Below the pieces are notes generated by a model. That model worked only from the letters and a program-made list of their open reading frames with translations. It had not been told where the DNA came from and made no database searches. The position numbers and the translations under genes were made by a program. Shown piece after piece: positions 6,680 to 27,332 of a stretch of DNA of 63,675 bases. The stretch is from NCBI GenBank assembly GCA_021204625.1, contig JAJPZA010000059.1, positions 1 to 63,675 of the forward strand. Reading direction: 5' to 3'. Source of the stretch: Clostridia bacterium. Lineage in GTDB: Bacteria > Bacillota > Clostridia > Christensenellales > Borkfalkiaceae. The number at the start of each line of letters is the position of its first letter. Position 1 is the first letter of the stretch.

Positions 6680-6708
6680 TTGACACCCCTTATGTGCGTG
6701 GATATAAT
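6680..6708 (+). promoter_or_regulatory. Consensus promoter TTGACA-17-TATAAT for the riboswitch-ribU transcript
   Basis: TTGACA 6680-6685, TATAAT 6703-6708. Confidence 0.85.
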
Positions 6709-6719
6709 ATAGCCGAAAG

Positions 6720-6840
6720 TTGTTCTTTGAGGCGTGGTGCAAGTCCACACCGGCAGTAAAGTCTGCAAAGATGGGTATCCCATCCCGAACAGGTGAAATT
6801 CCTGTACCGACGGTCACAGTCCGGATGGTAAAAGGATGCA
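6720..6840 (+). ncRNA. FMN riboswitch (RFN element)
   Basis: Conserved blocks GAGGCGTGGTGCAAGTCCACACCGGCAGTAAAGTCTGC, ACAGGTGAAATTCCTGTACCGACGGTCACAGTCCGGATGG, located upstream of a RibU-like gene. Confidence 0.92.
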
Positions 6841-12710: not shown

Positions 12711-12740
12711 ATCCCCCGGATAAAAATCCGGGGGGTTTTC
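12711..12740 (+). terminator. Intrinsic terminator of icd
   Basis: CCCCCGGATAAAAATCCGGGGGGTTTTC. Confidence 0.8.
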
Positions 12741-12830
12741 TTAAAACTGCAGATAAAAATCCGGGGCAATTTCAAAAATTGCCCGTATATGTGCGGTGTT
12801 CGGTTTCCAGAGACTGGATAAAAATCCGGG
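12719..12830 (+). repeat. Three copies of a (G)ATAAAAATCCGGG(G) motif
   Basis: Copies at 12719-12733, 12752-12766 and 12816-12830; a further perfect 9-bp hairpin GGGCAATTT-CAA-AAATTGCCC at 12764-12784. Confidence 0.7.
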
Positions 12831-12880
12831 ATCCGTGGGAGACCGGATATAAATCTTTGGAAAAGCTTCATAAGCGGCAG

Positions 12881-12967: not shown

Positions 12968-13435
12968 ATGTACTGCAAGAAATGCGGAGCGAAAATAGAT
13001 GATGACTCATTGTTCTGCCCAATGTGCGGAACGCCCGTATCCCAGCCGAACCAGCCGAGGGCGGGCCTGGATTCGGATGACCCGTTTGACATTCCGGAGC
13101 CCAATGCCTCCGGCGGACAGACACAGCAGGGCCAGCCGAACCAGCAGAACCAGTACCGGCAGAATCCGGAGCCGAACGGAGGCTATTACCCGCCGCCCCC
13201 GTATTATCCGTATCCTCCTCAGCCCGCTCAGCCCGGTCCGCTTGACAAAAAGAGCGGAGGGTTTGCGGCGCTGTGCTTCTTCTTTCCCATTGTGGGCCTC
13301 ATCCTGTTCATCGTATGGCATGACTCGCTTCCTCTCAGGGCCAGATCCTGCGGCAAGGGCGCCCTTGCCGGGGTAATAACCTATGTGTGCCTTGTCGTGA
13401 TTTTATACGTCATCATCTTTATAGCCTTGGTTTGA
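12968..13435 (+). CDS. Zinc-ribbon protein with Pro/Gln-rich linker and two C-terminal TM helices
   Basis: MYCKKCGAKIDDDSLFCPMCGTPV zinc ribbon; PPPPYYPYPPQPAQPGP linker; two hydrophobic segments. Confidence 0.85.
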   Translation: MYCKKCGAKIDDDSLFCPMCGTPVSQPNQPRAGLDSDDPFDIPEPNASGGQTQQGQPNQQNQYRQNPEPNGGYYPPPPYYPYPPQPAQPGPLDKKSGGFAALCFFFPIVGLILFIVWHDSLPLRARSCGKGALAGVITYVCLVVILYVIIFIALV

Positions 13436-13606: not shown

Positions 13607-13635
13607 AAAAAAAACTGCGCCAACAAGTGGCGCAG
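13607..13635 (-). terminator. Strong intrinsic terminator of the minus-strand orphan transcript
   Basis: Minus strand CTGCGCC-ACTTGTT-GGCGCAG-TTTTTTTT. Confidence 0.9.
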
Positions 13636-13753
13636 GAAAAATTTTCTTATGAAGTTGTTTTTCTTGCGGGAATCGCCGCCATCACGACTTACTTTTGGTT
13701 TTGGAACCATGCAGCCACTAATTGCCACTGCAAATCATGTGTCGCCCTAGGAA

Positions 13754-13780
13754 TCAGATTCCCTCCTTAAAGCTGTTCAT
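13754..13780 (-). CDS. Micro-ORF 2, MNSFKEGI
   Basis: ATG preceded by AAGGAGGT at 9-nt spacing; SD overlaps the stop of micro-ORF 1 (TAAGGAGG). Confidence 0.4.
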   Translation of the reverse strand: MNSFKEGI

Positions 13781-13795
13781 TGGCAAGGTACCTCC

Positions 13796-13843
13796 TTACT
13801 CTTCTATCGCATGGGATAAGCAAAGTCTTTCAAAATGAATCAT
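13796..13843 (-). CDS. Micro-ORF 1, MIHFERLCLSHAIEE
   Basis: ATG preceded by near-perfect SD AGGAGGTG. Confidence 0.45.
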   Translation of the reverse strand: MIHFERLCLSHAIEE

Positions 13844-13987
13844 GGCTTCACCTCCTACGATATCCCCTATCATAAAGAGACGTCTTATGAAAATTTTTTA
13901 TCTCGTTCAAAGAAACTTTCCAAAATCCGTTAAAAATTTTTGTTGGCGCCTAACATTTTTTGTTAGTTTCTTTCTCTTTCTGGCCTA

Positions 13988-14015
13988 ATTATAGCACATT
14001 GAGTTCAGATGTCAA
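13988..14015 (-). promoter_or_regulatory. Consensus promoter TTGACA-16-TATAAT (minus strand)
   Basis: Plus-strand TGTCAA 14010-14015 and ATTATA 13988-13993. Confidence 0.8.
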
Positions 14016-14400: not shown

Positions 14401-15876
14401 ATGTTCTCCGGCAATTCAACGCTTGGTTTCGTTGCCGTTCTCGCCATTATTCTTGCATTCACCAAACTGTTCGGACTTATCTTCCACAAGATAGGCCTGC
14501 CGCAGGTGCTCGGCTATATAGTTGCCGGCATTCTCATAGGCCCGGCCCTCTTCGGAGATTTCTGCGGATTCTGTCTCATAGGCTTTGAGGGCTCCGGATA
14601 CACCGCTCTGTTCACCCTTCCGGCCAGCGCGGCGGACGGCACCGGATTCAACGTGTCCAACGCCTTGGACATCTTCTCCAAGATAGGCGTCCTGCTTCTC
14701 ATGTTCTCCACGGGACTGGAGACGGACATCCACCAGATGAGGAAGACAGGTGTCACGGCGCTTCTCGTTGCCCTTGTTGGCGTCCTCGTGCCCTTCGCTC
14801 TCGGCATTGTCATTTCGCTCCCGTTCGGCAACATAGGGCTCGGATTTGAGACTCCCGCTAACCTCTACAGGTGCATCTTCGTGGGCACCATTCTCACGGC
14901 CACAAGCGTGGCCATAACAGTCTCCGTTTTAAAGGAACTGGGAAAGATAAACACAAAGCTGGGGACCACTATAGTCTCGGCCGCAATAATAGATGACGTC
15001 ATAGGCATCGTCCTTCTGTCCATCGTCACAGGCATCGCGGAGGCTTCCACGGAGCAGGAGTACGAGAACGGATTCGAGGCTTTCAAGGGCACCATATACG
15101 GCACGATCATAATGATAATAGCCTTCTTCGTCTTCGCCGTGGCTGCCGGGTGGGTCCTTTCCAAGCTCTTCAAATGGATGGACAAGAGATGGCCCAACCA
15201 TCACAGAATCCCAATCTTCTCTATCGCCGTATGCTTCGCGTACGCATGGATAGCTGATGAAATCTTCGGCGTTGCGGACATCACAGGGGCGTTCCTTGCA
15301 GGAATCGTCCTTTCCACAGACCACAGGGCAAGCCAGTACACGGACAAGAAGGTGGACGTGAACTCGTACATGATCTTCGCCCCCGTATTCTTCGCCAACA
15401 TAGGAATTTCCAACATAACCTTCGCAGGCCTTGACCCCACGATTCTTCTGTGGGCGTTCCTGGCGGTAATCATGGGGCTCATAGGAAAGGTAGTAGGCTG
15501 CGGAGCCGTCTTCAAATGCTTCAAGTACAACTGGCGCCAGAGCACCATAGGCGGCGTGGGAATGATGGCCCGTGGCGAAGTGGCCCTCATAATCACGTCC
15601 ACAGTGACAAGCTCCGCTCTCGGCGAATACGCCCTGCCGTCTGAGTTCATGATAATGACGGTGCTTCTCATTCTGTTCTCCTCGATCCTCACGCCCATCA
15701 TGCTGAAGGTCTTCTACAAGGGAGACAAGGACGGCTTGCCTTTGGGCGGCGGCGGTGGCATGCCGGAGCCTCTTCCTGATTCCGGCGGAGCTCCGGCTCC
15801 GGGCACAAACCCTGGCGGCTCAGCGAATCCTTCCGGACAAGCCGCAGAGCCTGCGGCCCCGAACGGCAACGGCTGA
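14401..15876 (+). CDS. Cation:proton antiporter (Kef/CPA2 type) with Gly/Pro-rich C-terminal tail
   Basis: GLPQVLGYIVAGILIGP, TSVAITVSVLKELGKI, AAIIDDVIGIVLLSIVTG; SD GGAGG upstream of ATG 14401. Confidence 0.9.
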   Translation: MFSGNSTLGFVAVLAIILAFTKLFGLIFHKIGLPQVLGYIVAGILIGPALFGDFCGFCLIGFEGSGYTALFTLPASAADGTGFNVSNALDIFSKIGVLLLMFSTGLETDIHQMRKTGVTALLVALVGVLVPFALGIVISLPFGNIGLGFETPANLYRCIFVGTILTATSVAITVSVLKELGKINTKLGTTIVSAAIIDDVIGIVLLSIVTGIAEASTEQEYENGFEAFKGTIYGTIIMIIAFFVFAVAAGWVLSKLFKWMDKRWPNHHRIPIFSIAVCFAYAWIADEIFGVADITGAFLAGIVLSTDHRASQYTDKKVDVNSYMIFAPVFFANIGISNITFAGLDPTILLWAFLAVIMGLIGKVVGCGAVFKCFKYNWRQSTIGGVGMMARGEVALIITSTVTSSALGEYALPSEFMIMTVLLILFSSILTPIMLKVFYKGDKDGLPLGGGGGMPEPLPDSGGAPAPGTNPGGSANPSGQAAEPAAPNGNG

Positions 15877-16699: not shown

Positions 16700-16916
16700 C
16701 ATTAACGTGGGAGTATGTCATATCCCGTTTTCTGCGCCTGGAATTATGCAATTATGCCGCCGGTCCGGCGGATGCATGGGCAGAATGCGGGATGATAAAC
16801 ACGGGCATGTGAAAACACGGCGCGGGTAACCCGTTTGAAAGTTTGGACCGCAGAAGGCTGCTGCGGGCAGCCGGAATCCTTTGGCCGGCCGGGCCAAAGG
16901 GCATGGGGGAGTATTG

Positions 16917-19900
16917 ATGAGAAAACGGTCTTCAAAGAGCCTGCTTGCAGCAATCCTGGCTCTTCTTGCAGCATGCTGCATTGTCATTGCGGCGGCCTGC
17001 ACGCTCACGGGCGTTGAGATATCCCTGGACGGGGATGAAGGCATAACATTCCTTGAAGAGGACAATAAGGCAATAATAGGAAGAGGGCGCACTCTGGACG
17101 TGGAACGGGACATTCCGTACACTTTGGACGTGGGCTATTCCATAGAATCATGGACTTTGGAAGTGGACGGCGAGGAGACGGATTTCGACGGCACCGTCCG
17201 CATTGCGTACGGCAGGACGTACAGTCTGTACGCCCATCTCATATACACGTCCAATGACATAGCCATCTCCGCCGAAGGGCAGGACGGCATAACCATAAAT
17301 ACCTCCGTGGTCAATTGGCCAGTCGGAGGAACTTTTGATGTCTCCGAAGATCTTCCGGAAGGCTGCTGCACCCTTGAGACCGGATACACCCTGACAGGCT
17401 GGACGCTGTACACAGACGGAGCGGCCCAGGACTTGGCCGGAGCCTTCCTCGTGGAGAAAGACGTCTCATACGTCCTTGTGCCTTCCGTGGACCTTGCGGA
17501 CATAACGGTCCGGATAGAGTCCCCGAGCGGCGAGGCCCTGGGTGGTCCCATCGTGCAGAAATACGGGACAACCCTGGATCTTGGCAGCATAAACTACACC
17601 CCGCCGAAGGGCTATGAGCTCACAGGCTGGACCCTCACGATAGACGGCGAGCCTGCGAATGACCGGATACAGGATGGCTCCATAACCTTGAACCAGCTGG
17701 CGGACTATGTCCTCACCCCGGTCCTTGATCAGGTCTACATATACGTAACGCTTTCCGTCTCGGAAGACAGCTCATCCTTCATCCAAATCCTTGAGGAATC
17801 CATCCGCGCGGCCGTAGGCTCCACGGTGGACATCTCCGCAGCAACAGAGAAAGACATCACATATGCCGTATCATACGGCTATGAAGTGACCTGGTCCCTT
17901 CTTGTGAACGGCGAGAAGACGGAATCCTTCAACGGGACTTTTGCCGTGGAAAAAGGCGGCACATATGAGCTTGTGGCCAGCGCTTCCCCCGTGGACGTGA
18001 CAGTCACCGTGAACGTCACAGGCGTGGACGGAACGGAGCCCTGGACAGTCACCAAGTCATACGGAGACACATTCTCAATAGCGGAGGACATAGAATACGT
18101 CCCTGAGACCGGCTACGAGGTAAAGGGATACAAAGTGCAGGAGGGAGACGGCACGGCCAGGACCCTCGGCTCCGGCGAGACGGAGTTTGCCATAGAATCC
18201 ACGGACGGGTACACCGTAACCATAGAAGTGGGCTACATCGAGCTTGCCTATACCTTATACCGGGATGACGGGGAGACCGTCATAGAGACCGGCACCACTC
18301 ATTACATGGCCGAGGTGGACCTGTCCAATGCGGACCTTTCCTGGATTGAGGAGCCGTACGCCCTCGGATACTGGGAGATTCTAATCCGGACGGAAGACGG
18401 TGAAATCACCGGAAACCTTGCCGGAGACACGCTCATAGTCCGTGAGGTGGGAACCTTCCATCTCACGGCAAAGCTCATAGACACCACGCTTAACCTCATT
18501 ATATATGAGGAGGAATACGAAGAAGGGAAGACGGACTATGTCGTGTTCAGCTCCCAGGATGACATAACTCTGAATGAAGCCGTAAACTTAAGCGACATCA
18601 GCTACACCCCTCCCGTGTCCATCTATGACGGGGACTATGAACTGGTTGGCTGGAAGCTCATAGCAGAGTATGTGGATGACACATCTTATACTAATGACTA
18701 TGGTCTGGACGGCTCATTCACCATTACCCGTAACGGCTCATACCATCTGTACCCCATACTGAACAGAATAACGGTATCCTTTACTATTTCCGCAAGCGAG
18801 GATGACGCAGACCTCATATCCGTATCCACAGCAGAAGACTCCTGTCTGTCCGGAGAAGACTACAGCGTGGAGGGCATTGAGTATGAGATGCTGGATTCCA
18901 ACTATGCCCTTTCCGGATGGACCCTTGTCATAACAGATTCCGAAGGCAATGCAACAACGCAGTTCATCCCTGCAGACGGGTCATTCGTTGTAAAAGCAGG
19001 CAGCACATACAGCCTTGTGGCAGCAGTGGAGCAGGTTCGCTCCGCCATATCCCTGGGCGTCTCAGACGGCAGCGCAGGCCAGATTACGATAGCAGACGGA
19101 GCATCCATAACAAAAGATGTTGGATCCGTATTTGACGTCTCCGCAGACATTGCAGACAGCTTATACGCATTTGCAGATGACTACTCATACGGCTACGTGG
19201 TTTCCTGGATCTTGACAGTGGACGGCGTTGAAACAGCCATGGAAGGCGGCACCTTCACTGTTGAGGCCGGAAAGTCATATGAGCTTCTGGCTGTTGTAAG
19301 CCCGGCTGAGGTTAATATAACCGTCATAATAGAGGGCGTTGCAGCAGACGGCGAAACCATAACCAGGCACTACGGGGACACCTTCAGCCTCACAGATGCA
19401 TCATTTGATGTAAGCGAATACACCGGCTATGAGATAAAGGGCTATACAGTACAGCACGGGTCATCCTCTGAAAGCCTTGATGCAGACGCTGCATCCTTCA
19501 CAATTGATTCCACAGATGATTACACGCTCACAATCTCTGTGGGCTATACAGACCTCACGTATTCACTGTACCAGGAAAACCGGCAGACACTCATAACCTC
19601 GGGCACAACCCATTATGAGGGAACCATAGACCTCAGCGGCATAGAATACACGCCGGCGGAAACGGACAGCTTCATCTATGAGCTGGATGGATGGCAGGTA
19701 TATGTTTATGACGGCTCTTCATATGAATACCTTGAGACCATATCCGCGAATGGAAGCATTGAGGCAGGATACGTTCGGAACTATGTCTTAATTGCCGTGG
19801 CCAGGGAGACTTATGCCAAGGTTTCCGTGAGCGTGGCGGAAGGATACAATGATTACATTGTGTCCGTGACCTCCGAACCCATTGCTGTGGCGGTCGGAGA

Positions 19901-22900
19901 ATCTTTTGACACAGGCACGGATGCTGCATCCGGCATATGTGAAGCCAGATACGGCTACAATCTCGTCTGGAGCCTGATGGTGGACGGGGCTGAAGATGCT
20001 TCATTCGACGGATCATTTACTGTAGAGAAAGGCAATACATACAAGCTGGTTGTAAGCACTGAGCCTAAGACTGTTACGATTAATATTGAAGTATCCGGTG
20101 TTGAAGCAACCGTTGAATCTGTTACCAAGAACTTTGGAGATACATTCAGCCTAACGGATGATGTGGCCTTTGACGTTAGCAACTATACCGGCTACGAGAT
20201 AAAGGGCTACAGTCTGCAGATTGGCGAAGAGGAAGCCAAGGCAATTACAGAGGACTTCCGGATTGATTCCATAGAGGATTACACTCTCACAGTCTCTGTG
20301 GATTATATAGTTCTGTCCTATACTTTCTACGACGAGGACGGCACTACAGTAGTTGCCTCCGGAACCACGCATTACGGAGATGCATTGGATCTGTCTGCGG
20401 TGGTATATACGCCGCCTGCAGGATGGTCTCTGTCATCCTGGATTGCAAAGGTGGACGGAACAACCGTCGGCCAGCCCAGCGCTTCAGCAACCGCATATGA
20501 AATCACACAGGTAGGCACCTATACATTCACAGCTGTTCTCCTTCATGACGAGCTCCATGTTGTCGCATATACGGATGATTCTGATTCAGCTCATGCCGTA
20601 TATACGAACAACCATGTATATGTTGGAGACACGATTGAAATGTCCTCCATAGATTACACGCCGGAAGAGGATGCATACGGCACGTACGAACTGACCGGAT
20701 GGAAGCTTTATATAGATGAAGAATACAGCAGGACAATAGATGCGGCGGGCAGCCTTTACATTGACGCTGAAGCGTCATACGTCCTTATCGCCGTCACAAA
20801 CCAGATAACGGCCAGGATTACGCTGTCTGCGGATGAGAGCAGCGGAAGCATTATAAGCTTCACAAGCGGGCAATTATATGCAACCCTGATGGAAGAGGGA
20901 GGCACAACATTCACATTAAGCACCGGCCTGGCGGATGCCTACAGTCTCACGGATTCCGTGAACTATTCCGTATCCTGGACGCTCAAGACAAACGGCGAGA
21001 CCGCTGATGATTTTGACGGCTCATCCTTTGCCGTAGCAAAGGGGACCACATATGAGCTTATAGCCGCTGTCACAAGGATTCCTGTAGATATATCTCTGGC
21101 AGTGAAGGATGGCGAAGAGGGCATCATATCCATTGATACAGGCTCATCCATCACAGTTGAGTCCGGCGTGGAATTCAGTGTGTCAGGCATATTATGCAGC
21201 ATGCTGGATTCAAATTATGAGCTCGCCGGATGGACATGGTACGTGGACGGAGCCGCCCAGGGAGAGACAGTCTCCACAGACGGAACAGTAACGGCAACAG
21301 CCGGACACACCTATACGCTGGAGGCGGCAGTGGTCCAGGTCCGCTCTGCAATATCCCTCGGCGTATCAAGCGGCAGCACGGATTGCATCACAATTACAGA
21401 AGGTGCATCCATAACCAAGAATATTGGAGATTCCTTTGACGTCTCAACGGATATAACCTCCGGCATGTATGCGTTCACGTCAGACTACTCATACGGTTAT
21501 GTGGTTTCCTGGACATTGACCGCAGACGGAGTTGAGACTGCCATGACAGACGGCACGTTCACCGTTGAGGCCGGAAATGCATATGAGCTTCTTGCGGTTG
21601 TCAGCCCTGCACAGGTCAATATAACAGTGACCATAGACGGCGTGCCTGCGGGCAATGAGACAATAATCAAGTCATACGGAGAAACCTTCAGCCTCACGGA
21701 TGATGTGACATTTGATGTAGGTGGCTATACCGGATATGAGATTAAGGGCTACAGCCTGCAGATAGGCACTGGCTCTGATGATGCAATAACAGAGGATTTC
21801 CGGATTGAGTCCATTGATGATTACACGCTCACAATTTCTGTGGGTTATATAGACTTAACCTACATCATATACCAGGCAGACGGCACTACAGAGATAACCT
21901 CCGGAACAACCTACTACGGTGATGAAATAACCATAACATCCTATGAACCCGCAGAGGATTCATACGGCACATATGAAGTGTCCGGATGGACTGTTTATAT
22001 AGGCAGCGATGCCGTTGGCGCGGATATAGGCAATATAACAACCTACACAATAGGGTCTGTCGCAGATTACAGGTTTGTGGCTCAAACAGAGCAGATAACG
22101 GCAAAAGTGATACTTGCGGCGGACAGCGACAGTGCAGGCCTCATTGATTTCAGCACAAGCGTTATTTACAAGGCAATCAGTGACGGATCCTTCAGCATAG
22201 ATGCAGATATCACGGCTGAAATGTATGAGCTCACAAATTCCACGGATTATGAGATTTCCGGCTGGACGCTGTATGAGAACGGATTTGCGGCCGAGATGGA
22301 TAATGGCTCATTCACCATAGCAAAAGGAACCGCATACCAGCTTCAGGCTGCTGTGGAGAGAATCCCTGTAGCCATTACGATTGAGGCCGGAGATGATAAC
22401 GGCGCTATCATTTCAGTCACTACAGCCACATGCACAGCCGGTTCCGGAACGGATTATTCTGTATCCGTCATTGAGTACATGATGCTGAATTCCAACTATC
22501 AGCTTGCAGGCTGGAAGCTGTACATAGACGGAAGTGCCCAGGAAGGCACAGTAGCTGTAGACGGCAGCTTCACAGTAACAGCGGGGAAAGAGTATAAGCT
22601 CGAAGCTGTAGTAGAGAGAATTCCTGTGACCATCTCCATTGAGGCAAATACCGGAGACTCCGGGCGCATTGAAATAGTAACAGACAGTGCCACTGTAGAC
22701 TCCGGCCTTGAATACACAATTCCTACGGGTCTGTATACAATCACGGACACCAATTATGAAGTAACAGGCTGGCTTCTGTATACCAACGGTTCTGCAGAAG
22801 CGGATTCCTATAACACAGGTGATTCATTCACAGTAACCGCAGGCAATACATACAAGCTTGTTCCTGTTGTATCTCAGATCCAGGTTGAGATAACCATCAC

Positions 22901-25900
22901 AAGCGCGGATGGCCAGTCAAGCCTTATAACCATCACAACGGAATCCGCTACAGTGGGATCCGGCGATTCATATAGCGTATCCAACATCGAATATAGTACA
23001 AATGAAAACTACCAGCTCACTGGCTGGACGCTGTACATAGACAATGAGGCCCAGGAAGGCGCAATAGCCATAACAGGCAGCGTTTCGGTATCGGCAGGCC
23101 ATTCATACAAGCTTGAGGCAGTAGTAGAGAGAATACCTGTTGAAATTTCCATAGAAGCAAGCAGCGAAGATTCAGACCGTATTACGATTACTACATCCAG
23201 TGATACAGAGGGCTCCGGTCTTGAATACACTATATCCGATAGCCTGTATGTCATTACAAACTTCAATTACGAAGTGACCGGCTGGCTTCTGTATATCAAC
23301 GGTTCTGCAGAGGGAATCTCATACAGCACAGGCTCTTCATTCCCGGTTTCCACAGGCAATACCTACAGGCTTGTTCCTGTCGTGGAAGGAGTGGAGGTAA
23401 CCATTCTGATACAGGATGGCAATGAGGGAACTCTTGGATCTTATACATCAAGAGTAGGAAACAGCGCCACGGTTGCTGACATTGTAGCAGATGCTTCAGA
23501 ATACATTCCTGCAGAATGGCATTACCAGGATGGTTGGGTTGTTGCTATAGGAGATTCAAGCTCTGTAGTAAAGGCAGATGAAGCGGATACGGCCACTGTG
23601 GAAATTACGGATTCAACGATAACATATCTCCTCACGCCGTACCTCGTGGAATATGGCAAGGTAACCGTCACGCTTGAAGGCATGACGGCAAATAAGGATA
23701 AGATAACTCTTGGCTCGGCCACTGACCATTATGATGGTGAGACCTACATCTTAGTTGGAGAATCATACGAGCTTCCTGTAGAGACATCCGAGTACATTCT
23801 TTCACTGGCTTCAACATACGGCATAAAGGGATGGGCTCTTTGCAACGAGGATGGAGATATAGTTGCAACATATGATAACGTACTGGTTGGAGTTCAAGAT
23901 GTTCTTACCCTTGAATCCGGCGGGGCATACACGCTCGTTCCCATAGTGGACCACTACTATACAGTAAACCTTGCAGACGGCGTGGACGGCTTCGGGCTTA
24001 CAGAGATTAGAGTGTATGACTCTGATGAAGACGGCCTTGTGCTTCCTTTAGCAGACTCTGCATACATAACCGATAATTCAACCGGAAGAACTCTTGTTGG
24101 ATGGTACCTTGAAACAGAGGACGGGGAAATCATAACAGCGGAAGGCGGCGCCAGCGGCATCTATAATCTGGGAGCAGCTGTTGGGGCGGTAACGGGCAAT
24201 CTCATCGTCTGGCCTGTGCTGGCGGACACTGATTATCCTCTGTCCACGAACGGAAACTGGCTTGATATCAAAGGCAGTACCATTGCAATGACGGACCATG
24301 CCGGAACCGTCCTGGGCGTGGACAGCTATACGGATGTCTGGCATTACATCTCCGACACATACATGTATGACAAGGAAGACAATGTAGCCGATTACACAAT
24401 CATCAATGTGGCCAGCGATACCGGGCTGACAAAAACCCTGGTTTCCGGATACTGGTTCAGGCTTAACACGTCCGCCGAAGTGACCCTTGTCCAGGGGAGT
24501 TATTATGACATCTACTTCGCGCTCACGAACTTCAGCTCGCAAGACATTACCCTCACGCTGTATGTCTGCACCAACGGATATCTCGGAACAAGCGACACGT
24601 CCACGTCCAGCAATCATACAGATGGCTATACGGTAACAATTCTTGCCGGAGATGCGGTTGAGTTCGCTTTCTACGGATTCCAGGAAACAGTAGCGGTAAA
24701 CACATCCCAGAACAATTTCATAACGGTAATCCAGCTCGAAAGCCAGTGCACGGAAATGGCCCTCGGCGTGAGAATTAATGTGACGGAAGAGGACACAGAA
24801 GCAAAGGGCACTGTATATGTTCAGGCTGCGGACGGAATTGCATTTGACACATCCGAAGGCGAATGGACCTCATACGGCGATTGGCTTTCCAAGGATTATT
24901 CCATCGGCGAGTCCGTACAGCTTGCAGACGGAAGCAACTATTCCTTGGATACGGATGGAGGCTATATCCTCCTCGGATGGTACATGCTTGACAACAACGG
25001 CAACGTGATAGGAAATCTCCAGGACACAGACTTCACCTTCACACTAACATCCAGTGCGGTATATCTGAAGCCTTATGTGCTTTTAGGCTCCGAGGCCTAC
25101 GGCCATGTCTCACTTACAGCCGATGTGACAGGCGTAACCCTTGACGCTTCCTATGCTGATGGGACAAATGACTACTTCAGCTTTGTGGACAATGCAGCAG
25201 CAGTGCTGCCTGCGGCGGAGCAGGTAAATTACACGGGCGACAATACGCTTACCGGCTGGTATGTTGAGACTGAGGCCGGAGATACTGTGGGATTCTATGA
25301 TTTGGGCGGATCTGTTCCGGGCATGACCACGAACCTTGTCATATGGCCTGTTTTCGGAAGGTCATTCTTCAAGCTGGAGGTCAATGACGGCAACACCAGT
25401 TCAACGTCGGACGTTGCGGGCACCACGCTCGGAACGAACGGAGGATCAAGCTACACTGCGCTCATCACCAGCACGAACATGTACAACAAGGTGGATTTGG
25501 TCAAGGAATATACCATAACCAATGCTTCCGGACAGACGCTGCCTGAAGGCTACTGGTTCAGAACAAACACCTTCGTTACAAGCGGATCCTGCAGATCTTC
25601 CGATTCCACAGAAGTATTCCTCGAGGGCGGCCTTGTCTCCGGACATTACTACAATATCTACTATGCCCTTACAAACTATGGCGACATAGATATAACCTTC
25701 ACAATCTACCATTGCACCAACGGATATTTTGGAACCGGTTCTTACGCAACAAACAATTACGTACAGCAAGAAGTAACCATAAAGCCTGGTGAGACGGTAT
25801 ATGTCTCCTTCATGGATTTCTGTGAGAAAAACACGAATGCCAACAACTTTATAACTATCTACCAGCTCTCAGATGACTGCAGCGATTTCCAGCTTGGAAT

Positions 25901-27332
25901 GAGAATCTGGATAGAGGAAGAACCTGTAAGCGTTAATATAGAACCCGTAGACGGTTTCACTCTCACAAACACGGATGACTGGTCTTCCATGACCGCATAC
26001 AAGACCTCAACCATAACTGTTCCCGTATACGGCGAGGACTTCACAATCTCCAGCGGTTATGTATTCCTCGGCTGGTATATTGTGGACAACAATGGAAATA
26101 TCCTTGATTTCATTGAAGACGGCGGCTCGTTCACTGTCTCTGACTCGAATACATGCCAGATTGATGAATACTATCAGCAGGTTCTTCTGATGCCGTATGT
26201 AATAACGGAAGACGAGGCCACCAAGACAATAACGATAGATTCATCCGTAGACTCCAGCACATTCTCCTTGACAAGCGGTATCACTTTCCAGATTGGCAGT
26301 ACGTCTTCCGCGATAACTCTTCCCACAGCGGATGACGTTTCAAATGACACCGGCAGAACCCTTTCCGGATGGTATGTGGAGGACTCCCAGGGCAATATCT
26401 TTGGAACCAGCGCAAACGGGGTTTACGATCTGGGGGCAGAGTTCACTGTAGATGCATTCACAGACAGCCTTGTTATCTGGCCGGTTTTAAGCGATGACAC
26501 ATATCAGCTCGAGGCCAACGGATATAACAGGGAAAACAATCATGTCACCACAGATGAGTCCGGCACTGTTTTCGGCTCTTACGACAGGAGCAATAACCTC
26601 AACAGCAGCTTCAGCGATACGGAGATGTACAACAAGACGGACAACGTTCTGGAGTACGTTGTGCTCAACAAAAATTCCGGCGGCAGCCTTGTGCCTCTCA
26701 GCTCAGGGAGCTGGTTCAGATTCAACACATATGCCGCAAGCGTGACAGACGGCCATCTCAATGACGGTTCATACTATAACTTCTACTATGCCGTCACCAA
26801 CTACAGCGATACGGCCATTACCATAACAATTTACCATTGCACCAACAGCTACGGGGATTCGGGCACGTACGGCATGGTTTCCCGGCAGGTCACCATACAG
26901 CCGCAGAGCACAGAGTATGTGCTGTTCGCATACTTCTGCCAGCCCAGCACATCATCCTCATTAAGCTATACAGAGAATTTCATAACGGTTATAGAGCTCA
27001 ATCAGGATGTGGATACCCTCATGCTTGGCGTAAGGATACAGGCAGAGGATTTCACGGCCGGCACAGTCTCCGCAGCTGTAAGAGTGGATGCCGCGGGATA
27101 TGATTTCACAGTATCCGGATGGACAACGGACGGCTATTATGCCGGAAGCACCTGCTATGTGCCCGCATCTTCAGAGTATGCAAATGACACAGGCATGACC
27201 CTCTCCGGATGGGAGTATTATGATGAGAACGGAAGCCTGGTGGAAACAGTGGAGGCAGAGGGTTCATTCGTGATTCAGTCCACGGCAGTTGTCCTTGTGC
27301 CTGTATTCACGGACAGCGCGGATACGGACTGA
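16917..27332 (+). CDS. Giant (3471-aa) exported repeat protein, probable lipoprotein or N-terminally anchored surface protein
   Basis: MRKRSSKSLLAAILALLAAC export signal; many GW-x-LYxDG...GSFTVxAGxxYxLxAVV beta-repeats; three C-terminal modules with 1134-nt spacing; no LPXTG at the C-terminus. Confidence 0.85.
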   Translation: MRKRSSKSLLAAILALLAACCIVIAAACTLTGVEISLDGDEGITFLEEDNKAIIGRGRTLDVERDIPYTLDVGYSIESWTLEVDGEETDFDGTVRIAYGRTYSLYAHLIYTSNDIAISAEGQDGITINTSVVNWPVGGTFDVSEDLPEGCCTLETGYTLTGWTLYTDGAAQDLAGAFLVEKDVSYVLVPSVDLADITVRIESPSGEALGGPIVQKYGTTLDLGSINYTPPKGYELTGWTLTIDGEPANDRIQDGSITLNQLADYVLTPVLDQVYIYVTLSVSEDSSSFIQILEESIRAAVGSTVDISAATEKDITYAVSYGYEVTWSLLVNGEKTESFNGTFAVEKGGTYELVASASPVDVTVTVNVTGVDGTEPWTVTKSYGDTFSIAEDIEYVPETGYEVKGYKVQEGDGTARTLGSGETEFAIESTDGYTVTIEVGYIELAYTLYRDDGETVIETGTTHYMAEVDLSNADLSWIEEPYALGYWEILIRTEDGEITGNLAGDTLIVREVGTFHLTAKLIDTTLNLIIYEEEYEEGKTDYVVFSSQDDITLNEAVNLSDISYTPPVSIYDGDYELVGWKLIAEYVDDTSYTNDYGLDGSFTITRNGSYHLYPILNRITVSFTISASEDDADLISVSTAEDSCLSGEDYSVEGIEYEMLDSNYALSGWTLVITDSEGNATTQFIPADGSFVVKAGSTYSLVAAVEQVRSAISLGVSDGSAGQITIADGASITKDVGSVFDVSADIADSLYAFADDYSYGYVVSWILTVDGVETAMEGGTFTVEAGKSYELLAVVSPAEVNITVIIEGVAADGETITRHYGDTFSLTDASFDVSEYTGYEIKGYTVQHGSSSESLDADAASFTIDSTDDYTLTISVGYTDLTYSLYQENRQTLITSGTTHYEGTIDLSGIEYTPAETDSFIYELDGWQVYVYDGSSYEYLETISANGSIEAGYVRNYVLIAVARETYAKVSVSVAEGYNDYIVSVTSEPIAVAVGESFDTGTDAASGICEARYGYNLVWSLMVDGAEDASFDGSFTVEKGNTYKLVVSTEPKTVTINIEVSGVEATVESVTKNFGDTFSLTDDVAFDVSNYTGYEIKGYSLQIGEEEAKAITEDFRIDSIEDYTLTVSVDYIVLSYTFYDEDGTTVVASGTTHYGDALDLSAVVYTPPAGWSLSSWIAKVDGTTVGQPSASATAYEITQVGTYTFTAVLLHDELHVVAYTDDSDSAHAVYTNNHVYVGDTIEMSSIDYTPEEDAYGTYELTGWKLYIDEEYSRTIDAAGSLYIDAEASYVLIAVTNQITARITLSADESSGSIISFTSGQLYATLMEEGGTTFTLSTGLADAYSLTDSVNYSVSWTLKTNGETADDFDGSSFAVAKGTTYELIAAVTRIPVDISLAVKDGEEGIISIDTGSSITVESGVEFSVSGILCSMLDSNYELAGWTWYVDGAAQGETVSTDGTVTATAGHTYTLEAAVVQVRSAISLGVSSGSTDCITITEGASITKNIGDSFDVSTDITSGMYAFTSDYSYGYVVSWTLTADGVETAMTDGTFTVEAGNAYELLAVVSPAQVNITVTIDGVPAGNETIIKSYGETFSLTDDVTFDVGGYTGYEIKGYSLQIGTGSDDAITEDFRIESIDDYTLTISVGYIDLTYIIYQADGTTEITSGTTYYGDEITITSYEPAEDSYGTYEVSGWTVYIGSDAVGADIGNITTYTIGSVADYRFVAQTEQITAKVILAADSDSAGLIDFSTSVIYKAISDGSFSIDADITAEMYELTNSTDYEISGWTLYENGFAAEMDNGSFTIAKGTAYQLQAAVERIPVAITIEAGDDNGAIISVTTATCTAGSGTDYSVSVIEYMMLNSNYQLAGWKLYIDGSAQEGTVAVDGSFTVTAGKEYKLEAVVERIPVTISIEANTGDSGRIEIVTDSATVDSGLEYTIPTGLYTITDTNYEVTGWLLYTNGSAEADSYNTGDSFTVTAGNTYKLVPVVSQIQVEITITSADGQSSLITITTESATVGSGDSYSVSNIEYSTNENYQLTGWTLYIDNEAQEGAIAITGSVSVSAGHSYKLEAVVERIPVEISIEASSEDSDRITITTSSDTEGSGLEYTISDSLYVITNFNYEVTGWLLYINGSAEGISYSTGSSFPVSTGNTYRLVPVVEGVEVTILIQDGNEGTLGSYTSRVGNSATVADIVADASEYIPAEWHYQDGWVVAIGDSSSVVKADEADTATVEITDSTITYLLTPYLVEYGKVTVTLEGMTANKDKITLGSATDHYDGETYILVGESYELPVETSEYILSLASTYGIKGWALCNEDGDIVATYDNVLVGVQDVLTLESGGAYTLVPIVDHYYTVNLADGVDGFGLTEIRVYDSDEDGLVLPLADSAYITDNSTGRTLVGWYLETEDGEIITAEGGASGIYNLGAAVGAVTGNLIVWPVLADTDYPLSTNGNWLDIKGSTIAMTDHAGTVLGVDSYTDVWHYISDTYMYDKEDNVADYTIINVASDTGLTKTLVSGYWFRLNTSAEVTLVQGSYYDIYFALTNFSSQDITLTLYVCTNGYLGTSDTSTSSNHTDGYTVTILAGDAVEFAFYGFQETVAVNTSQNNFITVIQLESQCTEMALGVRINVTEEDTEAKGTVYVQAADGIAFDTSEGEWTSYGDWLSKDYSIGESVQLADGSNYSLDTDGGYILLGWYMLDNNGNVIGNLQDTDFTFTLTSSAVYLKPYVLLGSEAYGHVSLTADVTGVTLDASYADGTNDYFSFVDNAAAVLPAAEQVNYTGDNTLTGWYVETEAGDTVGFYDLGGSVPGMTTNLVIWPVFGRSFFKLEVNDGNTSSTSDVAGTTLGTNGGSSYTALITSTNMYNKVDLVKEYTITNASGQTLPEGYWFRTNTFVTSGSCRSSDSTEVFLEGGLVSGHYYNIYYALTNYGDIDITFTIYHCTNGYFGTGSYATNNYVQQEVTIKPGETVYVSFMDFCEKNTNANNFITIYQLSDDCSDFQLGMRIWIEEEPVSVNIEPVDGFTLTNTDDWSSMTAYKTSTITVPVYGEDFTISSGYVFLGWYIVDNNGNILDFIEDGGSFTVSDSNTCQIDEYYQQVLLMPYVITEDEATKTITIDSSVDSSTFSLTSGITFQIGSTSSAITLPTADDVSNDTGRTLSGWYVEDSQGNIFGTSANGVYDLGAEFTVDAFTDSLVIWPVLSDDTYQLEANGYNRENNHVTTDESGTVFGSYDRSNNLNSSFSDTEMYNKTDNVLEYVVLNKNSGGSLVPLSSGSWFRFNTYAASVTDGHLNDGSYYNFYYAVTNYSDTAITITIYHCTNSYGDSGTYGMVSRQVTIQPQSTEYVLFAYFCQPSTSSSLSYTENFITVIELNQDVDTLMLGVRIQAEDFTAGTVSAAVRVDAAGYDFTVSGWTTDGYYAGSTCYVPASSEYANDTGMTLSGWEYYDENGSLVETVEAEGSFVIQSTAVVLVPVFTDSADTD

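Follow-up and report, generated by a model that had tools for sequence, protein, structure and literature searches.

The minus strand at positions 13607–13982 almost certainly encodes a member of an undescribed class of structured RNA. The RNA is near-universal in a genus of gut bacteria, and its homologues display conservation, covariation of helices and of a palindromic loop, and a coding signature in a series of micro-ORFs. The window, which here means the whole 63.7-kb stretch of clostridial DNA that was analysed, carries the following features of this element.

13988–14015 (−): promoter TTGACA-N16-TATAAT with an extended −10 TG, read from the sequence; kept in 76/76 scorable homologues
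13607–13982 (−): predicted transcript of ~375 nt, from a predicted start site to the terminator
13965–13974 (−): helix P1, 5′ strand GAAAGAAACT, pairing with AAGTTTCTTT
13950–13966 (−): 5′ hairpin H1, CTAACA-AAAAA-TGTTAG, from sequence and fold
13941–13955 (−): DIS-like hairpin TGTT-A-GGCGCC-AACA, hexamer GGCGCC at 13945–13950; palindrome in 80/81 homologues
13909–13918 (−): helix P1, 3′ strand AAGTTTCTTT, closing the 5′ domain and pairing with GAAAGAAACT
13844–13855 (−): Shine-Dalgarno of ORF2, AGGAGGTG, with spacer; sequence reading
13796–13843 (−): micro-ORF2, MIHFERLCLSHAIEE and stop; in 81/81 genus homologues, with in-frame synonymous excess
13790–13797 (−): Shine-Dalgarno of ORF3, AAGGAGGT, overlapping the ORF2 stop; sequence reading
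13754–13780 (−): micro-ORF3, MNSFKEGI and stop; in 81/81 genus homologues and also in other genera
13757–13763 (−): helix a, 5′ strand GGGAATC, at the end of ORF3; covariation
13741–13745 (−): helix b, 5′ strand GCGAC, weaker (poor alignment register); sequence reading
13697–13731 (−): two variable hairpins within the 3′ domain; fold and reading of relatives
13684–13688 (−): helix b, 3′ strand GTCGT, equally weak
13668–13674 (−): helix a, 3′ strand GATTCCC; covariation
13607–13635 (−): GC-rich intrinsic terminator CTGCGCC-ACTTGTT-GGCGCAG-T8; sequence reading

The promoter, the terminator, both micro-ORFs with their strong Shine-Dalgarno sequences and hairpin H1 had been noted in a preliminary description of this DNA, and all were found where it had placed them. 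The promoter matches the consensus at 12/12 positions in addition to the TG extension. Perfect TTGACA/TATAAT sites occur twice in the window, as compared with 0.04 expected from shuffling, and TTGACA, the N16 spacer and TG are identical in all 76 homologues that could be scored for the promoter. The element is present once in its own genome. The only other perfect promoter of the window lies directly ahead of an FMN riboswitch (89 bits; 6680–6840, +).

A blastn comparison with relatives gave one full-length match (86%) and ~20 matches that were limited to the first 90 bases. Two covariance models were used, R2 for the 5′ module and R1 for ORF3 and the 3′ domain. R2 found the RNA in 81 of the 94 genomes (species) of the genus at one copy per genome, a pattern of vertical retention, and the two modules co-occur in the loci that were fetched. 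The genus takes in Candidatus Coproplasma, with Candidatus Coproplasma excrementipullorum among the named carriers. The conserved order is promoter, 5′ hairpin, micro-ORF1, GAAA-loop hairpin, micro-ORF2, micro-ORF3, variable domain, 3′ strand and terminator. RNA length ranges from ~340 to 770 nt; most of the difference comes from the insert that separates ORF3 from the 3′ strand and spans ~60 to 450 nt in relatives. A weaker second 5′ module is seen ~120 nt downstream of the first in three loci (L050:1627-1709 and L101:327-409 (+), L085:319-412 (+)).

Outside the genus, R1 had no match among 287 genomes of the order. Run on 41 genomes of the family, R2 gave weak matches in other genera, which on reading proved to share the layout although they are highly diverged, and a 5′-end pattern together with a third model, R3 (promoter and 5′ end), revealed the multi-ORF layout in genera g27, g28, g128 and g131. 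With these diverged relatives, the RNA is known from at least four genera of the family besides its own, at least five in total; R3 is too permissive above ~E = 1e-10 to yield a prevalence for the family, and membership is claimed only for other-genus loci whose sequence was read. In these other genera most ORF3 copies retain a start of MY or MN, and short ORFs with strong Shine-Dalgarno sequences number 1.93 in 30 loci as compared with 0.17 after shuffling, about 11-fold. The pattern also matched sequences in other families of the order, all of them ordinary gene promoters or chance occurrences, and locus L018 was a promoter-like chance match ahead of an ABC transporter gene. No DNA similarity to phages or plasmids was found.

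The fold of the window element is better than that of its shuffles (z = −2.5). P1 duplexes formed from strands of the same species gave −6.15, as compared with −5.44 for cross-species duplexes (sd 0.15). H1-like hairpins with different stems are present in other genera of the family, and the GAAA-loop hairpin that follows ORF1 shows two-sided changes at 3/4 pairs, with stems CCGC/GCGG, CGGC/GCCG, CGCC/GGCG and CCCC/GGGG. Helix a pairs the final codons of ORF3 with a strand that in the window lies ~90 nt downstream, and farther away in long members. Its variants are GAAATC/GATTTC, GGAATC/GATTCC, GAGGTC/GACCTC, GAGACC/GGTCTC and, in the window, GGGAATC/GATTCCC. Two-sided changes were seen at 6/6 pairs of helix a, with 92% of cells paired, and at 3/3 pairs of the next helix, counts of cells that overstate independence because the homologues are related. 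The covariation score was 0.390, as compared with 0.204 after shuffling (reached in 0/500); the alignment was fitted to the structure under test and so favours it, yet every slide of the pairing partners lowers the score and the signal collapses. A pseudoknot that would join the helix-b loop to the 3′ tail is modestly suggested by a matched value of −5.45, as compared with −4.82 across species (sd 0.25; 2.5 sd).

Two further elements of the preliminary description read differently. Its possible GGGATA/TATCCC pairing is already lost in L002, the nearest relative at 86% identity, where TTATCCCAT has become TGCACCGGA, and so lacks support; the third Shine-Dalgarno that it saw inside ORF3, AAGGAGGG, is better understood as the 5′ strand of the conserved helix GGGAATC/GATTCCC. 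In the minimum-free-energy fold GGCGCCAACAA pairs over a long stretch with TTGTTGGCGC, the terminator arm, but this pairing is confined to the clade of the window.

The micro-ORFs of the window have 15 codons (ORF2) and 8 codons (ORF3). Two ORFs with strong Shine-Dalgarno sequences are only modestly unlikely in the window sequence by itself (0.21 expected, p ~0.016); over the 81 homologues, short ORFs with strong ribosome-binding sites number 2.04 as compared with 0.13 expected. We therefore count the window micro-ORFs as certain because of their conservation and not because of single-sequence odds. ORF2 (10–20 codons) and ORF3 (8–11 codons) are present in every one of the 81 copies, and in most of them the ORF2 stop overlaps, or is closely coupled to, the ORF3 Shine-Dalgarno. 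In the genus homologues, a fraction of 0.35–0.40 of in-frame single-base differences in ORF1–3 is synonymous, as compared with 0.17–0.21 expected. Out of frame the fraction is mostly 0.15–0.20, the exception being some excess in the +1 frame of ORF3 (0.306 as compared with 0.239). Because of the in-frame excess, the ORFs appear translated and constrained within the genus, and we consider translation of all three very probable. One clade (L004:1549-2166 (+), L023, L024, L031, L034 and L040) has a longer ORF3, for example MYNSTYRGSNS, and is mostly sited away from the antiporter gene described below; L004 has one additional micro-ORF.

What the translation is for can be read in more than one way. 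The main rival to a regulator acting in trans is a decoy for ribosomes or tRNA, in which ORFs of 2–20 codons with strong Shine-Dalgarno sequences would sequester ribosomes or cause the release of peptidyl-tRNA, thereby tuning translation capacity. The model for such action is the phage lambda bar minigenes; minigene drop-off is established (PMC8012679). The other genera fit this reading: their ORF1 has only 2–5 codons (MH, MN, MK, MHK, MDR and similar, each followed by a stop), and the presence of a peptide is kept but its sequence is not. A g131 locus (L133:883-1193, −) repeats an 82-nt module three times at a spacing of 114–115 nt, and every repeat has its own ribosome-binding site and a start codon, followed by two codons and a stop. 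However, ORF2 and ORF3 are under purifying selection within the genus, and a decoy would not need elaborate covarying structure or a palindrome. We regard this explanation as unlikely, although it is the best of the alternatives.

Less likely again is that the micro-peptides themselves are the product, made from a small polycistronic mRNA, and that its structure serves only to control their translation. In favour of this, the synonymous excess extends to all three ORFs, and peptide motifs recur among the 81 homologues (..LYFARTIE.KGR and stop in ORF2, MYKFTxEI and stop in ORF3). Across genera, however, the peptides are hardly alike while the RNA layout persists. ORF1 has just 4 codons (M-x-x-K/T-UAG) in the 58 genus copies that hold it and is lost in the window copy, and a messenger of this kind gives no role to the palindrome or the 3′ helices.

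The palindrome lies in a second 5′ hairpin (13955-13941), absent from the preliminary description, that overlaps H1. The loop has 7 nt with one base unpaired, and its arms, TGTT/AACA, are nearly constant. A perfectly self-complementary hexamer occupies the loop in 80 of the 81 genus homologues and takes 12 different sequences: GGTACC, GCGCGC, AGCGCT, GGCGCC, GACGTC, GCTAGC, ACGCGT, ACCGGT, GTGCAC, CGCGCG, CGTACG and TGCGCA. The sole exception, GCTGGC, self-pairs through a central U-G. Among 29 distinct hairpins all three hexamer pairs covary and are 100% paired. The script that selected hairpins required self-complementarity and omitted, of the 81 loci, 3 whose perfect palindromes sit in a shifted register and another 15 with AGCGCT one base over; all of these are palindromic, and therefore no non-palindromic copy was discarded. 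Among the covarying pairs are the adjacent bases 9 and 10 (UA:12, CG:11, GC:5). Because neighbouring bases cannot pair in cis, this covariation must be intermolecular, and no second copy of its own hexamer was present in any of the genus transcripts checked. This argues strongly for a kissing-loop homodimer in the genus. The palindrome is seen in this genus only, and dimerization is therefore not essential to the RNA class as a whole. The natural variants provide ready-made compensatory mutants for the study of RNA homodimerization in bacteria.

The same palindrome could instead serve as an operator, bound in the DNA by a dimeric repressor, with no RNA dimer loop. Its site, just downstream of the promoter and shortly past the start, would suit an operator, as would the nearly constant arms. 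Operators keep their bases, yet here the centre changes freely while remaining self-complementary, the outer arm pair covaries like an RNA stem (AU, GC, UA), and the unpaired loop base breaks the DNA symmetry. These features make an operator very improbable, and leave the kissing loop as the preferred reading of the hairpin.

Downstream of the window element there is only a convergent zinc-ribbon gene, 12968-13435(+), as the preliminary description had reported. Divergently upstream lies a cation/proton antiporter gene, 14401-15876 (+). A divergent antiporter adjoins the RNA in 57 of the 70 genomes that hold both, and adjacency is missing in 13/70, in some cases owing to contig ends. In the loci read, the downstream genes are convergent or have their own promoters and their identities vary; neighbours differ in other genera of the family. 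The association of RNA and antiporter is one of synteny and not of a shared unit. Elsewhere in the window, stretches resembling GATAAAAATCCGGG are repeated at 12713–12840, between an isocitrate dehydrogenase-like gene and the zinc-ribbon gene, and a 3483-residue ORF at 16881–27332 (+), with many similar repeats and a signal-like N-terminus, probably encodes a giant surface protein.

Two options had been left at the outset, a dual-function small RNA or an orphan leader or attenuator, with a match to an Rfam cis-regulatory family or a lack of conservation named as evidence against that description; conservation is strong, Rfam gave no match, and the apparently autonomous, structured unit with coding signatures in its micro-ORFs supports the first option. 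An orphan cis leader of a lost gene, despite an attenuator-like layout of leader peptides, alternative hairpins and terminator, is barely credible for a unit that is conserved in 81 species with no consistent, regulated, co-directional downstream gene at the loci read and no Rfam cis-regulatory match, since a gene lost everywhere would leave no selection on its leader.

We favour, on evidence that is comparative throughout and as a plausible direction for a full explanation, a dimerizing riboregulator that would act in trans and be remodelled by ribosomes. The locus would encode an abundant structured RNA that stands alone, is strongly transcribed and stops at its own terminator, and in this genus two copies would kiss through their palindromic 5′ hairpin loops to form a homodimer. 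Ribosomes would translate the micro-ORFs serially, with ORF2 feeding ORF3. Because the 3′ end of ORF3 forms one strand of helix a, a ribosome finishing ORF3 would occupy that strand and open the 3′ domain. The fold of the RNA, and probably the exposure of the dimer loop also, would then be set by translation. That ORF3 translation switches the 3′ domain in this way is an evenly balanced proposal; regulatory action in trans is somewhat more likely than not. We suggest more tentatively that the RNA is a self-contained dimerizing device, in which ribosomes on the chain of micro-ORFs are the input and translation status (initiation, charging, release) sets shape, oligomeric state and activity in trans. 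If so, translation status would govern the shape and oligomeric state of an RNA that has no attached gene. The micro-ORF arrays make the idea of an RNA read by ribosomes for shape, and not for protein, directly testable.

Searches with Rfam 15 (4227 families) of the window, 16 genus loci and 10 other-genus loci gave best matches far below threshold. The element does not match 6S RNA (RF00013), and the 6S RNA of the genome itself sits elsewhere (C4:49803-49982). No tmRNA family matched the window element at E<=10, and, assuming that these families are in Rfam 15, no match to OLE, ROOL, GOLLD or raiA at E<=10 for the window element and E<=0.5 for relatives. In the main texts of the open-access literature searched, we found no description of such an RNA, nor of one that has no downstream gene and combines serial translated micro-ORFs with a kissing loop whose hexamer palindrome comes in a dozen natural variants.

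Several known systems share parts of this design. The palindromic loop of HIV-1 DIS is of comparable kind, a GC-rich self-complementary hairpin loop of 6 nt with alternative pairing adjacent, and GUGCAC occurs in both (PMC7357161). The present RNA differs in being bacterial and chromosomal and in having a 7-nt loop with one unpaired base and hexamers of at least 12 kinds; we do not propose that the two are related by descent. The lambda bar minigenes, as cited in PMC8012679, are likewise very short and efficiently initiated, whereas the RNA described here is conserved, structured and chromosomal and has several ORFs. Like rnTrpL/peTrpL, it is small, has a leader-like ORF (~14 codons in rnTrpL) and ends at a terminator, and the rnTrpL/peTrpL products act in trans; however, rnTrpL has one ORF and precedes trpE, while the present RNA has 2–6 micro-ORFs and no downstream operon (PMC7298713). 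OLE, ROOL and GOLLD are also stand-alone structured RNAs, bacterial or phage, with symmetric kissing loops and palindromes that switch between species (PMC12286853). For OLE and GOLLD, switching of adjacent palindromic bases argued for intermolecular contacts, which were seen by cryo-EM (PMC12286853), and within our genus the sequences likewise point to a symmetric kissing loop with a covarying palindrome. In contrast to these ornate RNAs, the present one is shorter and carries serial micro-ORFs with ribosome-binding sites, and its palindrome, a hexamer, exceeds their 2–4 nt palindromes in both length and variability (PMC12286853). It resembles both dual-function small RNAs and ornate homo-oligomeric RNAs, and brings together features that neither kind combines.
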